A stretch of 33,401 nucleotides of DNA from Nitrospira sp. Lineage in GTDB: Bacteria; Nitrospirota; Nitrospiria; Nitrospirales; Nitrospiraceae. The stretch is from positions 25,758-59,158 of the forward strand of contig SWDN01000002.1 in the NCBI GenBank assembly GCA_005116775.1, given 5' to 3'. Positions 1,162 to 25,181 of the stretch are shown piece by piece (positions within the stretch are counted from its first letter, which is position 1; each line of letters opens with the position of its first letter). Below the pieces are notes generated by a model. It was not told the origin of the DNA, searched no databases, and saw only the letters and a program-made list of their open reading frames with translations. Made by a program: the position numbers and the translations under genes.

Positions 1162-2562
1162 ATGGGTTTATTCCGCGAATACGATTTGCGCGGCATCGTA
1201 GGCCAGGAACTCACCGATTCGATTGCGGAACGGGTAGGCCGCGCCTATAGCACGTATGTGAAAGATCGCGGGGTGAAGACCATCTCAGTTGGGCGAGATG
1301 GCCGATTGAGTTCACCCGGGCTTCACAAGGCTCTCGTGCAGGGGCTCCTTGCCGGTGGATTGAATGTCGTGGATATCGGTATTTGTCCCTCGCCGCTCGT
1401 GTATTTCTCCCTGTTTCAGCTCCCGGTTGACGGAGGCATTATGATCACCGGGAGTCACAATGCAGCCGAATACAATGGATTTAAGATCTGCATCGGGAAA
1501 GACGCGATTCATGGAGAGGAGATCCAGGCGCTTCGAGCGGTGATGGAGGCCGGTTCTTTCGTGTTTGGAGCTGGGCAGTTGTCGGAGCACCCCATCATTC
1601 CCGACTACCTGGCCTATATCGAGAAAAGCTTCAGTCACGTCAATGCCAAGCGCCTCCATGTCGTGATCGATTGTGGAAATGGGGTGGCGGCGTTGGTGGC
1701 CAAACAGGCGTTGGAGCTTCTCGGCTGTCATGTCACAGGGCTCTATTGCGATCTCGACGGGAGATTTCCGAACCACCACCCCGACCCCACGGTGTTAGAG
1801 AATCTCGACGATCTAATTCAGTCCGTCAAGCAACATAAAGCCGATGTCGGGATCGGCTACGATGGAGATGCTGATCGCATTGGGACCATCGATGAACAGG
1901 GCAATGTGTTATGGGGCGATCGCCTCATGGTAGTCTACGCGCGCGATATTCTGGCGGCCAAGCCGGGGAGCACCATCATTTCAGAGGTCAAGTCCTCCCA
2001 GAGCCTCTATGATGATATTGCGAAGCGGGGAGGGCGACCAATCATGTGGAAAACCGGTCACTCCTTGATCAAGGCGAAGATGAAGAGCGAGCAGGCCGTC
2101 TTGGCAGGAGAAATGTCCGGGCACATGTTTTTTGCCGATCGGTACTTTGGGTATGATGACGCGATTTATGCCTCGTGCAGGCTGGTGGAAATTCTAGCCA
2201 AGACCACTCGTCCACTGTCCGCATTGGTGGCAGATCTTCCGAAGACCTCCGTCACCCCTGAGATTAGGGTAGACGTGTCGGACACCATAAAATTTGGTTT
2301 GGTCAGGCATGTGCAGGAACGGCTGGCAGACTGCATGAAGACTCGGAAGGAGCTTGGTCCTGCCAAGCTGGTGGTGCGTGATGTCGTCACCATTGATGGG
2401 GTGCGTGCCATCTTCGAGGATGGGTGGGGCCTGATCCGAGCGTCGAATACCCAGCCGGCCCTTGTCTTACGGTTTGAAGCCGCTTCGCCGGAGCAATTAG
2501 CCAAAATTCGCGCAGTCATTGAGGGCGAATTGGCAGCGGCCAAACAATCCCTTGGCTGCTAA
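1162..2562 (+). CDS. manB: Phosphomannomutase/phosphoglucomutase (alpha-D-phosphohexomutase)
   Basis: This cytoplasmic mutase interconverts hexose-6-phosphate and hexose-1-phosphate and supplies mannose-1-phosphate to the preceding gene product. At 466 aa it has the full family length. The phosphoserine loop ITGSHN places the catalytic serine at Ser98. The magnesium loop reads DGDADR (residues 234-239) where many relatives have DGDGDR. The sugar-specificity loop GEMSGH is at 316-321 and the C-terminal phosphate-binding loop RASNTQP begins at Arg426, close to the RASNT form of AlgC. The ATG is preceded by aggag at suitable spacing. Its position after the manC-type gene favours mannose use, but AlgC-like enzymes act on glucose too. 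Confidence 0.93.
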   Translation: MGLFREYDLRGIVGQELTDSIAERVGRAYSTYVKDRGVKTISVGRDGRLSSPGLHKALVQGLLAGGLNVVDIGICPSPLVYFSLFQLPVDGGIMITGSHNAAEYNGFKICIGKDAIHGEEIQALRAVMEAGSFVFGAGQLSEHPIIPDYLAYIEKSFSHVNAKRLHVVIDCGNGVAALVAKQALELLGCHVTGLYCDLDGRFPNHHPDPTVLENLDDLIQSVKQHKADVGIGYDGDADRIGTIDEQGNVLWGDRLMVVYARDILAAKPGSTIISEVKSSQSLYDDIAKRGGRPIMWKTGHSLIKAKMKSEQAVLAGEMSGHMFFADRYFGYDDAIYASCRLVEILAKTTRPLSALVADLPKTSVTPEIRVDVSDTIKFGLVRHVQERLADCMKTRKELGPAKLVVRDVVTIDGVRAIFEDGWGLIRASNTQPALVLRFEAASPEQLAKIRAVIEGELAAAKQSLGC

Positions 2563-2688
2563 GCAGGATACTGAAAAGTCCACCAGCGGCGTTCTCGGCT
2601 CATCGAAATCCTCAACTTACCTCTGAGGGTCCGTCTCCGGTTTCGATTCGACCGCGGCCTTGCTGAACGGCCTTTTTGAGCATCCTGC
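2563..2688. repeat. 126-bp interspersed element with imperfect 20-bp terminal inverted repeats
   Basis: The left end gcaggatactgaaaagtcc matches the inverted right end ggcctttttgagcatcctgc with about three mismatches and one length difference. The element begins right after the phosphomannomutase stop codon. Its right part has ggcc, a 9-nt loop, ggcc and then five T (2656-2677), which could act as a factor-independent terminator. I remember very similar sequences scattered in Nitrospira genomes, but could not check copy number. The element encodes no credible protein, so a MITE-like or REP-like nature is likely. Confidence 0.65.
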
Positions 2689-2734
2689 GGGATACGTTCT
2701 TTTTCTGTGCCATCCCCCCCCAAGCTTACCTCAA

Positions 2735-3568
2735 ATGACTGCTTCTCAACCGATACAGCTTCATTCACGATGCGTTGTATCGCTTCATGCTCTTCTTTTG
2801 CGCACGTGGCTCATACGCCTGATAGTGAGTGCCATGAGCGGTGCGGTTTCTTGGGCTGAGACCGGCGAACTCCCTGCAGCGCGATTCTTCCACGTCGGCG
2901 AACAGCTCACCTACGAGATTTCCTGGATGAATATCACTGCGGGCACGGCTGTGATGGCTGTCCGTGATGCTGGAATGGATGGGGAGCGCCCTGTGGCGAA
3001 ATTAGTCACCACGGCGCAATCGAGTCCTTTCGTCACCAAATTCTTTCCCGTGGATAACCGAATCGAATCGATCGTAGATCCCGCCACGCTGCTTCCGGAG
3101 CATTTGAACTTCAGGCGGCGAGAAGGGAAGAAGAAAGAAGACTTCGAGTACACATTTCATCAGAAAGAGGGAAGGATCACAGTTGTCAAAGGCGGGACGA
3201 CTGAAACATTGGAGATGCCGACGGGCACCCAAGACGTCATCTCTTGTCTCTATTATGCGCGTAGCACATTATCGTTCCAGCCTGGCTCATCTCTGACGAT
3301 GAATGTGTATTACGATAAAAAGAACCGCAAACTGGATGTACAGGTCGAGGAGATCGAGACGGTCAGTGGTCCGTGGGGGGAAGTTGAAACGGTTCGTGTG
3401 TTGGTGATCATGCCATTTCAAGGTCTCTTCCTCAACCAGGGCAACATCCGGGTATGGTTTACCAACGACGATCGGCGCATTCCGATTCGCATGAAGGCGA
3501 AAGTCATCATTGGGTCGATTGTGGCTGACCTCGTCAGCGGATGGCCGGTGTCTTCACCAGCGCAATGA
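2735..3568 (+). CDS. DUF3108-family exported protein
   Basis: This 277-aa protein (from the ATG at 2735) has a hydrophobic N-terminal stretch ending in a plausible signal-peptidase site (VSWA before ETGE), followed by a beta-rich domain. Features of the domain include GEQLTYEISW, AGTAVM and a late VRVWF/IPIRMKAKV pattern typical of DUF3108 proteins, which are predicted periplasmic or envelope proteins of unknown function. The open frame extends upstream into the interspersed repeat, so starts before 2735 are unlikely; an ATG at 2834 directly before the hydrophobic part is an alternative. No strong ribosome binding site decides between them. The neighbouring fbp gene begins about 60 nt downstream. 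Confidence 0.75.
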   Translation: MTASQPIQLHSRCVVSLHALLLRTWLIRLIVSAMSGAVSWAETGELPAARFFHVGEQLTYEISWMNITAGTAVMAVRDAGMDGERPVAKLVTTAQSSPFVTKFFPVDNRIESIVDPATLLPEHLNFRRREGKKKEDFEYTFHQKEGRITVVKGGTTETLEMPTGTQDVISCLYYARSTLSFQPGSSLTMNVYYDKKNRKLDVQVEEIETVSGPWGEVETVRVLVIMPFQGLFLNQGNIRVWFTNDDRRIPIRMKAKVIIGSIVADLVSGWPVSSPAQ

Positions 3569-5748: not shown

Positions 5749-7272
5749 ATGAAACTCGTGCGATCAGGGCTCGTTCCGCTGGCGTTGATCACTGGAGGGA
5801 TTATCATTGGCATTGTGGTGGCGTCCAACATGGATTGGTTGCCGTCCGGCACGGCCGGACCTGAACCGATTCCAAACCCCATTGTGCGTCCAGTTGCCAC
5901 TGCGCCACAGTTGCCGATGGGTGGCGGTGGGGGGAACGCCAAGAACTTCGTCGAGATCGCCAAATCAGTGAAGCCGGCGGTCGTCAACATTGCGGCCACG
6001 CGAAGCGGAAAATCCGGAGATAGTCCGCACGGGTCGCCGCTCGATGATCCGTTTTTTCGCAAGTTTTTCGGCGATGAACTGTTCAAACGCGATGCGCCTC
6101 AACGAGAGCCGAAAGAGCGCGGCCAGGGGTCCGGGGTCATTGTGGAGTCCAACGGGTTAATCGTCACCAACAATCATGTCGTGAACAAGGCCGACGACAT
6201 TCGCGTCTTTTTGTCCGACAAGCGGGAATTTAAGGGCAAGCTGATCGGCACCGACGCGAAAACGGATATTGCGATTGTGAAAATCGAAGCGACCGGGCTG
6301 CCCACCATTCCCTGGGCCGACTCCGATCAACTGGAGGTCGGGGAGTATGTGTTGGCTGTGGGGAGTCCGTTCGGACTTACCCAGACCGTGACCATGGGGA
6401 TTGTCAGCGCAGTCGGGCGGGCCAGCATGGGTATTGCCGAGTATGAAGACTTCATCCAAACCGATGCGGCGATCAATCCTGGAAATTCAGGAGGCGCGCT
6501 CGTCAATGTGCGAGGCGAATTGGTCGGAATCAATACGGCGATCTTCAGTCAGAGCGGCGGCAGCATGGGCATCGGGTTCGCGGTGCCGAGCAATTTGTCG
6601 CGCGCCATCATGGATCAGTTGGTCCGGACGGGCAAGGTCGTTCGTGGCTGGCTCGGTGTCGCCATTCAAGACTTGACTCCTGAGTTGGCCACGCAGTTCG
6701 GGATCACCGACACGAAGGGTGTGCTGGTTAGCGATGTGATGGCGGAGAGTCCTGCCAAGAAGGCGGGATTTGAGCGCGCAGATGTCATTGTCGAATATGA
6801 CAGCAAGTCGATGGACTCGCCGACGCATTTGCGGAATGCCGTGGCACAGACTCCCATCGGGAAGAAGGTCTCGGTCAAGCTGATTCGAGACAAGAAGCCC
6901 AAAACGATCGAAGTGATGATTGTGGAGCAGCCGAAATCGTTAGGGCAGCCCAGCGCAGAGGAGAACAGGGAGTCGGCGGTATCGACAGGTGTCCTTTCGG
7001 ATCTTGAGGTCCGTGAACTCAACGACGAATTGACTGCCCGGTATGGATTGAAGACCTCTGATCGTGGCGTGGTGGTCATCTCCGTCAAGTCAGGAAGCAC
7101 GGCGGAGGAAATGGGTGTGCGTGAAGGCGATGTGATTCTCGAAGTCAATCGTAAGGCGGTGAGCTCGCTCAAGTCCTATGAACAAGCCGCTTCAGGCCTT
7201 GCCAAAGATCAAGCGGTTCTCTTGTTGCTTAAGCGGAAAGGCCAGGCGATCTATCTCACGCTGAGGCCGTGA
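5749..7272 (+). CDS. degQ: Do/HtrA-type periplasmic serine protease with two PDZ domains
   Basis: This envelope quality-control protease degrades or refolds misfolded exported proteins. It is 507 aa, with an N-terminal hydrophobic segment (about residues 7-25) serving as signal peptide or membrane anchor and a Pro/Gly-rich linker. The trypsin-like domain has the catalytic triad His143 (TNNHVV), Asp173 (KTDIAIVKI) and Ser247 (GNSGGALV), with spacings of 30 and 74 residues close to those of DegP. Two PDZ domains follow, roughly 290-385 and 415-505. DegP and DegQ subtypes cannot be separated from sequence alone. It sits between the aldolase and ispD on the same strand, and its terminator region is a 9-bp periodic repeat. 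Confidence 0.95.
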   Translation: MKLVRSGLVPLALITGGIIIGIVVASNMDWLPSGTAGPEPIPNPIVRPVATAPQLPMGGGGGNAKNFVEIAKSVKPAVVNIAATRSGKSGDSPHGSPLDDPFFRKFFGDELFKRDAPQREPKERGQGSGVIVESNGLIVTNNHVVNKADDIRVFLSDKREFKGKLIGTDAKTDIAIVKIEATGLPTIPWADSDQLEVGEYVLAVGSPFGLTQTVTMGIVSAVGRASMGIAEYEDFIQTDAAINPGNSGGALVNVRGELVGINTAIFSQSGGSMGIGFAVPSNLSRAIMDQLVRTGKVVRGWLGVAIQDLTPELATQFGITDTKGVLVSDVMAESPAKKAGFERADVIVEYDSKSMDSPTHLRNAVAQTPIGKKVSVKLIRDKKPKTIEVMIVEQPKSLGQPSAEENRESAVSTGVLSDLEVRELNDELTARYGLKTSDRGVVVISVKSGSTAEEMGVREGDVILEVNRKAVSSLKSYEQAASGLAKDQAVLLLLKRKGQAIYLTLRP

Positions 7273-7282
7273 TCGGCTCAAG

Positions 7283-7336
7283 TTCATTTGGTCTATCTGG
7301 TCTGTTCGGTCTGTCTCGTGTGTTTGGTTGAATGAG
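7283..7336. repeat. 9-bp periodic intergenic array between degQ and ispD
   Basis: Successive nonamers resembling TCTRTYTGG (for example tctatctgg at 7292, tctgttcgg at 7301, tgtgtttgg at 7319) fill the gap. The segment gtctatctggt (7291-7301) is the exact inverse complement of accagatagac just after the ispD start codon, so a hairpin could cover the ispD translation start. Confidence 0.65.
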
Positions 7337-24878: not shown

Positions 24879-25181
24879 ATGGACATGACGAAACAGGACG
24901 TTGAAAAAGTTGCGAAACTGGCTCGACTTGCGTTGACGGATATTGAGAAGGCGGCGTTTACGAAACAGTTAAGCCAGATCCTCACGCATGTGGAGACATT
25001 GAAACAATATGACACGACAGGCGTCGAGCCGACAGCGACGGTGCTGGGGCAAGTCAATGTGTTTCGCCCTGATATTGTGAAGCCATCTCTGCCCATCGAT
25101 CGTGCGGTGGTGAATGCGCCGGAGTCGGCTGACGGGTTTTTTGTAGTTCCAAAAATTATTGAAGATCGACAACCCAATTAA
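24879..25181 (+). CDS. gatC: Asp/Glu-tRNA amidotransferase subunit C
   Basis: GatC is the small scaffold subunit of the GatCAB complex, which converts Glu-tRNA(Gln) or Asp-tRNA(Asn) to the amidated form. From the ATG at 24879 it is 100 aa. Family features are the N-terminal VEKVAKLARLALTDIEK helix and the C-terminal LRPD-like VFRPDIV with an ESADGFFVVPKII end. The chosen start lies after gagggaaggg; a TTG at 24855 is less likely. It opens the gat operon, with panD 15 nt downstream. Confidence 0.93.
   Translation: MDMTKQDVEKVAKLARLALTDIEKAAFTKQLSQILTHVETLKQYDTTGVEPTATVLGQVNVFRPDIVKPSLPIDRAVVNAPESADGFFVVPKIIEDRQPN

Follow-up and report, generated by a model that had tools for sequence, protein, structure and literature searches.

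A miniature IS5-type element that can target stop codons and may provide mRNA 3′ hairpins in Nitrospira

The window examined in this study, a stretch of 33,401 nucleotides from a Nitrospira genome, carries a 126-bp imperfect palindrome directly behind the stop codon of a gene of the phosphoglucomutase/phosphomannomutase family. This placement raises the question of whether the repeat is a mobile element that landed at the end of a gene, a ready-made 3′ end that the gene has come to use, or both. The original prediction regarded it as a terminal-inverted-repeat element with a built-in terminator, and its location at 2563-2688, immediately after a stop, is correct: the open reading frame at 1162-2562 ends with TAA at 2560-2562 and the element begins at 2563. 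The explanation that we favour overall, with a probability of roughly 0.8, is an IS5-type MITE whose YTAR target can be a stop codon, and whose hairpin orientation may have been retained by selection. The features of the locus, all on the plus strand, are as follows.

1162..2562, +, upstream gene, phosphoglucomutase/phosphomannomutase family (Pfam PGM_PMM domains I-IV, open reading frame); its stop codon is the insertion point
2559..2562, +, YTAR target CTAA (sequence, orthologous sites); the stop codon TAA of the upstream gene occupies 2560-2562
2563..2688, +, imperfect palindrome of 126 bp, a hairpin of class A that makes up the left part of the complete MITE (fold, copies, alignment of 107 copies with pair counts)
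2564..2583, +, left end of the element, which is the 5′ arm of the hairpin; consensus CAGGATGCTGAAAAAGTCCG
2669..2688, +, 3′ arm of the hairpin, including the T run 2673-2677; this arm is internal and does not form the right terminus of the mobile unit
2689..2765, +, expected tail and right end (TTTTTCCGCAGCCTG in intact copies), decayed in the window; limits estimated from intact copies and orthologous sites in relatives
2735..3568, +, downstream gene, DUF3108 protein; likely start ATG 2735, which would lie within the decayed tail

The NCBIfam matches of the upstream gene fall below the curated cut-offs, and the downstream DUF3108 reading frame as listed starts at a TTG within the element. 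The imperfect inverted-repeat ends are borne out, reading GCAGGATACTGAAAAG.. and, as the reverse complement, GCAGGATGCTCAAAAAG.. in the window copy. A covariance model trained on 23 copies, including that in the window (23 of 30 loci, with partial, masked or odd loci left out), finds 2563-2688 and nothing else in the window, and Rfam 15 gives 0 matches in the window at gathering score. A candidate second copy at 24894 lies inside an open reading frame, presumably GatC, and was taken as a chance match. Elsewhere, at 7290-7328, an 18-bp tandem GGTCTATCTCGTCTGTTC lies shortly 3′ of the stop of the open reading frame at 5749-7272; GTTTGGT/GTCTG-rich repeats resembling it occur at like places in loci L188, L091 and L154, and together these are perhaps another repeat class at gene 3′ ends.

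The palindrome is clearly not a single-copy sequence. In the window's own genome (2.67 Mb in 53 contigs, 70% complete), a BLAST search with the 126 bp returned 42 rows, the best non-self match having 89% identity over positions 1-126. The covariance model gave 102 rows at E≤1, about 20 of which are the other strand of the same palindrome, and the pattern CAGGMTGCTGAAAA with at most 2 mismatches occurs 229 times versus 20 times for its reversed control. Structure-aware covariance searches found matches at E≤0.001 in all 21 genomes of relatives, with 78 to at least 150 rows in each of the 13 same-genus genomes and 1 to 72 rows in each of the eight genomes from other genera in the order. Carriage by plasmids or phages was considered and discarded, as neither collection yielded a match at E≤1e-5. 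Some copies in the own genome are left ends without a recognised right arm (C9:61034, C23:94489, C34:104576, C34:171665 and C50:2608, which are loci L089, L091, L097, L099 and L101, a masked stretch covering part of the site in L089), and some such copies break off at the centre of the palindrome (L101, L094). They could be explained by deletion of the missing half, by different cores or by a process acting on one side only.

The prediction that these 126 bp form a repeated inverted-repeat element holds, but they are not the whole unit. We abandoned the palindrome as a complete mobile unit, along with the TA duplication of an IS630-type element suggested by the ‘TA’ before the left end, once a distal right end and YTAR tetramers had emerged. 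The full unit measures about 200 bp and reads YTAR-CAGGATGCTGAAAAAG..hairpin..~77 bp tail..TTTTTCCGCAGCCTG-YTAR, such that the palindrome is its inner conserved part and the true right end lies some 77 bp beyond it. The two ends of the palindrome are themselves unequal in most pairs (left ..GCTGAAAA, right, as the complement, ..GCTCAAAA), with few exceptions, such as two pairs that carry the right type on both sides. The looser tail of about 77 bp and then the second end, TTTTTCCGCAGNCTG, were recognised in 13 of 88 units at up to 3 substitutions.

A pattern for the right end, TTTTCCGCAGNCTGCTAR, was searched in 13 genomes, nine of them from the 13 same-genus ones. It occurs at 53 places in 8 of the 13 (8/9 same-genus genomes and 0/4 others), and its reversed control at 0. 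Of 28 distinct places in the retrieved loci, 23 have a left end 130 to 343 bp ahead of the right end, and the tetramers on both sides are identical by eye in 12 of these 23, the right one being CTAR by construction of the pattern. These units are short, multicopy and leave no room for a transposase gene, their terminal repeats are imperfect (CAGGATGCTGAAAA / CAGGCTGCGGAAAA), and YTAR is duplicated at the two loci for which empty sites are available. No distal right-end motif occurs within 130 bp of the window copy at up to 3 substitutions. With its right end unrecognisable and no related transposase found in its own, 70%-complete genome, the window copy is probably old and immobile.

Various cores occur between the ends of the unit: the class A hairpin seen in the window, a class B core (GGGGTAGCTGGGACGATCCCCGTGCTCG..), inserted modules and further types. 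Palindrome lengths of, for example, 95, 126-128, 168-173, 183, 203-225 and 421 bp were encountered. At C23:506933-507063 in the own genome (L095, L151), like ends surround a different hairpin, GTTCGACAAGCTCACCACGAA..TTCGCCCTGAGCTTGTCGAAGGG. At varying points within or beside the hairpin, L053, L057, L068, L072, L085, L086 and other loci contain modules such as TTCTCACCCGCCCAACCC..GGCGCGCC, as if small repeats had become nested by insertion. In the relative G005 (L155), a full unit directly adjoins an older class A copy, with one CTAG common to both.

How the element inserts can be read from sites at which relatives lack it. We joined the flanks of two copies, searched 21 genomes across the join, and evaluated the results by eye. 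The copy in G004 reads CGCTAG|CAGG..CCTG|CTAGCCGATGAAACC, with CTAG on either side of the element. The orthologous site has one CTAG, closely followed by the next start codon, in G006, the window's genome, G002, G012, G001 and G005, whereas it holds CTAA in G008 and other letters in G009 and G010; none of these nine carries the element. The second copy, in G001 (CTAA/CTAA), is missing from the eight relatives that were aligned. Comparison with empty orthologues thus reveals exact insertion with a 4-bp YTAR duplication at both sites, and at the G004 site this occurred within a stop codon that stays a stop codon. Since TAR is part of YTAR, insertion can hit a stop codon directly, and the duplication then re-creates that stop. 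YTAR is also the published duplication motif of IS5 elements, according to the part of PMC10359306 drawn on here. At the window site, one additional G (2563) separates CTAA from CAGG; in G008 and G012 the tetramer adjoins CAGG directly.

A potential driver of this family was found in G008, where locus L180 has both ends 1.3 kb apart, enclosing a transposase of 363 amino acids. This protein matches NCBIfam NF033581 (IS5 family) at 267.4 bits, against a cut-off of 140, as well as Pfam DUF772 and DDE_Tnp_1. Among the best 80 of 381 database matches, its relatives come from Candidatus Nitrospira defluvii and other Nitrospira records, at 72-86% identity, with more distant relatives in other phyla. 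The statement in the original prediction that similar elements exist in Nitrospira is supported in that insertion sequences with the same ends occur in Nitrospira records. Their ends, inspected in 23 of 80 loci, read CAGGCTGCGGAAAAAC and like sequences and are flanked by YTAR-type tetramers, identical on both sides by eye in 13 of 20 cases. The right end of the element at L153 (complement CAGGCTGCGGAAAAACTGTTGTG) is identical, over 23/23 terminal bases, to the end that precedes the L180 transposase. An autonomous partner is accordingly at hand in the IS5-family element L180/L206 and its Nitrospira relatives, with an IS5-type DDE transposase and YTAR-type tetramers. A transposase with matching ends, REP-associated or other, had been named as something to look for; the IS5-family DDE enzyme answers to the second description, and no REP-associated one with both ends was found among 14 Y1 loci.

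At E≤1e-20, 2 of the 21 genomes contain a transposase of the L180 type; the DUF772 domain turned up in 3 of the 13 genomes searched for it, nine of which are same-genus ones. Neither was found in the window's genome or in G001, which is 99% complete, and thus the family has either outlived its driver in some of the genomes that bear the element or the driver there was not found. Judged from its ends, target and partner, the element is almost certainly a MITE of IS5 type with YTAR as its target.

The history of the window site itself was followed by an orthologue search in 21 genomes. An element with differing cores resides at the same stop codon in G008, G002, G012, G010, G009, G006 and G011, and G013, from another family, has the end motif at the equivalent site, at a contig end. 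At this site no element was found in G001, G005, G003, G016, G020, G017 and G014, and in G004, G007, G015, G018 and G019 the search reached only a distant paralogue of the upstream gene. Three of the carriers, G012, G010 and G009, group closely as sisters in the protein tree (99/99 for this trio), yet the core is of class A in G012, of class A with an internal insertion in G010 and of class B in G009. We read these differing cores as a sign that copies may exchange their cores at a fixed insertion, the alternative being separate insertions into a favoured site. In G008 (L183), an old right end seems to supply the first codons of the downstream gene, and in G011 (L190) the upstream reading frame ends inside the element.

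The placement behind a stop codon that was noted for the window copy recurs across the family. We assembled a set of 133 copies, from which copies near locus ends, with N runs or with identical sequences had been dropped, and in which the copies from relatives are mostly top-scoring ones. Under a simple exact-stop rule, which demands a stop codon exactly in the tetramer and an open frame no shorter than 80 codons, the left end lies on a stop in 54 of the 133 copies and the right end in 3 of 32. When copies are selected by their right end, the corresponding values are 13/23 and 5/28 (p 0.007). Gene calls, which relied on a home-made codon model rather than an annotation pipeline, find, in 78 of the 133, a gene that runs towards the left end and has its stop no more than 12 bp away. 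The right end or arm is at a stop in 20, both sides being so in 10 of them, which gives 68 copies with the left side only and 10 with the right side only (p 1e-11). A wide window on the right side shrinks this bias to 62 versus 25 (p 9e-5), and at the same 28 right-end loci the gene calls put the left end at a stop 12 times and the right end twice. A replication-strand bias behind the orientation is unsupported, as copies away from stops and between co-directional genes run 9 with and 9 against the direction of the element, although these numbers are small.

The stop-codon position in the window can be read first of all as an expression of YTAR target specificity, and the question is whether anything beyond this is needed. 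A purely selfish MITE, for which YTAR targeting and the purging of harmful insertions would suffice and the bias would come from oriented insertion at gene 3′ ends, is a somewhat improbable account, despite several observations in its favour. YTAR contains stop codons, and the own-genome stretches examined hold 1060 YTAR sites, 82 of which are stops and 491 of which lie in coding sequence. The orientation bias is also similar among the 32 copies with a recognised right end (15 versus 4), which could mean that insertion itself is biased. However, full-length insertion sequences of the same family lie on stops with 7/63 and 7/67 of their two ends under the exact-stop rule, and thus are without orientation bias; these ends were tested in 69 of 80 loci, and the sample comes mostly from other phyla. 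Control YTAR sites in their flanks are stops in 71 of 1134 cases. The 54/133 for left ends of the element exceeds the values for the insertion-sequence ends, and it also exceeds the 82/569 share of stops among non-coding and stop sites in the own genome, a share that is itself inflated since the stretches were chosen around copies. The pairing of the hairpin arms, moreover, is kept. Target choice explains part of the pattern, and another factor, unseen in the insertion sequences, keeps or places the hairpin side next to the gene.

Selection for a function of the hairpin at the 3′ end might be this factor, a proposal to which we give even odds on the sequence evidence. The 126 nucleotides have a predicted fold of -43.5 kcal/mol with a z score of -2.62, and 1 of 200 shuffled sequences was as good. 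In a MAFFT alignment of 107 of 123 reference copies (16 were omitted), 94.8% of cells are paired versus at most 44.3% in slid controls. Both sides have changed in 20 of 35 pairs, against a shuffled mean of 9.3, and there are 143 double-sided change cells against 30 after shuffling; in none of five measures did any of 500 shuffles attain the observed value. These pair-change counts are inflated by relatedness and gene conversion, and the relatives' copies were found with a structure-aware model.

Intrinsic termination by a GC stem and T run, usable in both directions, is a putative function of the hairpin that we consider doubtful. The GGCC stem followed by five T of the original prediction is present as letters (GGCC at 2656-2659 and 2669-2672, T run at 2673-2677), but in the predicted fold the two arms pair with each other rather than GGCC with GGCC, which sets the T run opposite the A run of the left end as its pairing partner. 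A simple terminator scan of 2300-3000 did not report the element site. Across the family, a hairpin followed by T4 or more is present in 92 of 107 copies in each direction, TTTTT is found in 69 of 107, and a terminator role of MITEs is deemed conceivable, with pneumococcal SPRITE named, in the part of a review used here (PMC10969869). However, G occurs within the T run in 21 of the 107 copies and C lies opposite it in the A run in 19 of these 21, as judged by eye, which means that pairing is kept at the cost of the T run. The hairpins are similarly stable on both strands by folding, and hence hairpin quality alone does not explain the orientation bias. In E. coli, as reported in the section of PMC4824070 consulted, a terminator only a few bp after a stop codon is almost fully repressed and is most active at distances above about 30 bp; in the element, the 5′ arm starts at the stop, and the T run is about 110 nt downstream. 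The sacrifice of the T run to pairing, the likeness of both directions and the repression near a stop described in that section all favour a structured 3′ end over a plain terminator. The paired changes, also those inside the A/T tract, speak for a structure whose pairing may matter more at the mRNA 3′ end than its T run.

The same paired changes could instead stem from templated repair of the palindrome (quasipalindrome correction) or from conversion between copies, without any selection on RNA. The exchange of cores at one fixed site between close sisters makes conversion likely as a process. As the source of the paired changes it seems unlikely, in that a G-G mismatch beside the A/T tract (left GCTG, right TTTTTGAG) has stayed uncorrected in nearly all copies.

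The favoured explanation, an IS5-type MITE whose orientation is retained by selection, then involves the following steps. The MITE would have been spread in trans by an IS5-family transposase, as the shared ends and target suggest. It inserts at YTAR and duplicates these 4 bp, and where the target is the gene's own stop (CTAG, CTAA, TTAG) the gene keeps a stop, which makes such sites harmless landing places. The orientation bias may then mainly represent retention by selection, with the hairpin right after the stop likely stabilizing or defining the mRNA 3′ end and perhaps terminating transcription.

Several known systems share parts of this arrangement. The Nitrospira IS5-family insertion sequences (NF033581 type, about 1.32 kb) resemble the MITE in their ends (CAGG..TGC.GAAAA), in YTAR and in the 4-bp duplication, but they encode a transposase, are without the 126-bp hairpin and show no orientation bias at stops. 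REP/BIME palindromes are associated with RAYT transposases, and the EFAR repeats of Enterococcus are bidirectional terminators. Like the Nitrospira element, these are palindromes after genes with a possible role at mRNA 3′ ends; the Nitrospira element differs in its length of about 200 bp, its 4-bp duplication and its DDE-type partner. Mobilization by a REP-associated (Y1) transposase, as for REP or similar palindromes, would fit the palindromic form, intergenic position, many copies and short motif 5′ of the hairpin, but this origin is highly improbable and was rejected, because Y1_Tnp has no match in the window's genome or in 12 of the 21 genomes (including the element-rich G001, G004, G009 and G011), the 14 Y1 loci contained 3 weak matches to one end and none to both, and YTAR is duplicated with an IS5-type partner at hand.

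Correia elements of Neisseria duplicate TA upon insertion. As portrayed in the part of PMC10969869 drawn on, they too are short multicopy MITEs that form a transcript hairpin and possibly affect mRNA processing, whereas their sequence is different and they reside mostly upstream of genes rather than mostly after stops in one orientation. The pneumococcal SPRITE, BOX and RUP elements, together with ERIC, are comparable in the same part of that review with respect to repeat-borne terminator-like or 3′-end hairpins and nested elements; they are likened here by description, and oriented placement at stop codons is unmentioned in that part. The IS5-type MITE is thus already known as a kind, and the stop-codon target, one-sided orientation and exchanged cores make the present family a variant for which we found no description. 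A search of the open-access literature by titles and the beginnings of abstracts yielded no paper describing the element.

Tentatively, the family could represent a genus-wide takeover of a stop-targeting mobile element as the ready-made 3′ end of many genes, held in one orientation, with its fold kept by compensatory change and its cores exchanged at fixed sites while the ends stay constant. A target motif that contains TAA and TAG turns stop codons into safe harbours for a transposon, and the Nitrospira family offers a clear and testable case in which junctions, empty sites, orientation bias and a same-family insertion-sequence control can all be read from sequence. It also carries a warning for annotation, as reading frames can run into or out of such elements (L190, L183). 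The many copies constitute a large natural set of hairpins with graded T runs that would be useful for measuring what matters at bacterial mRNA ends, and they may illustrate how a family of this type can become the mRNA 3′ ends of its host.
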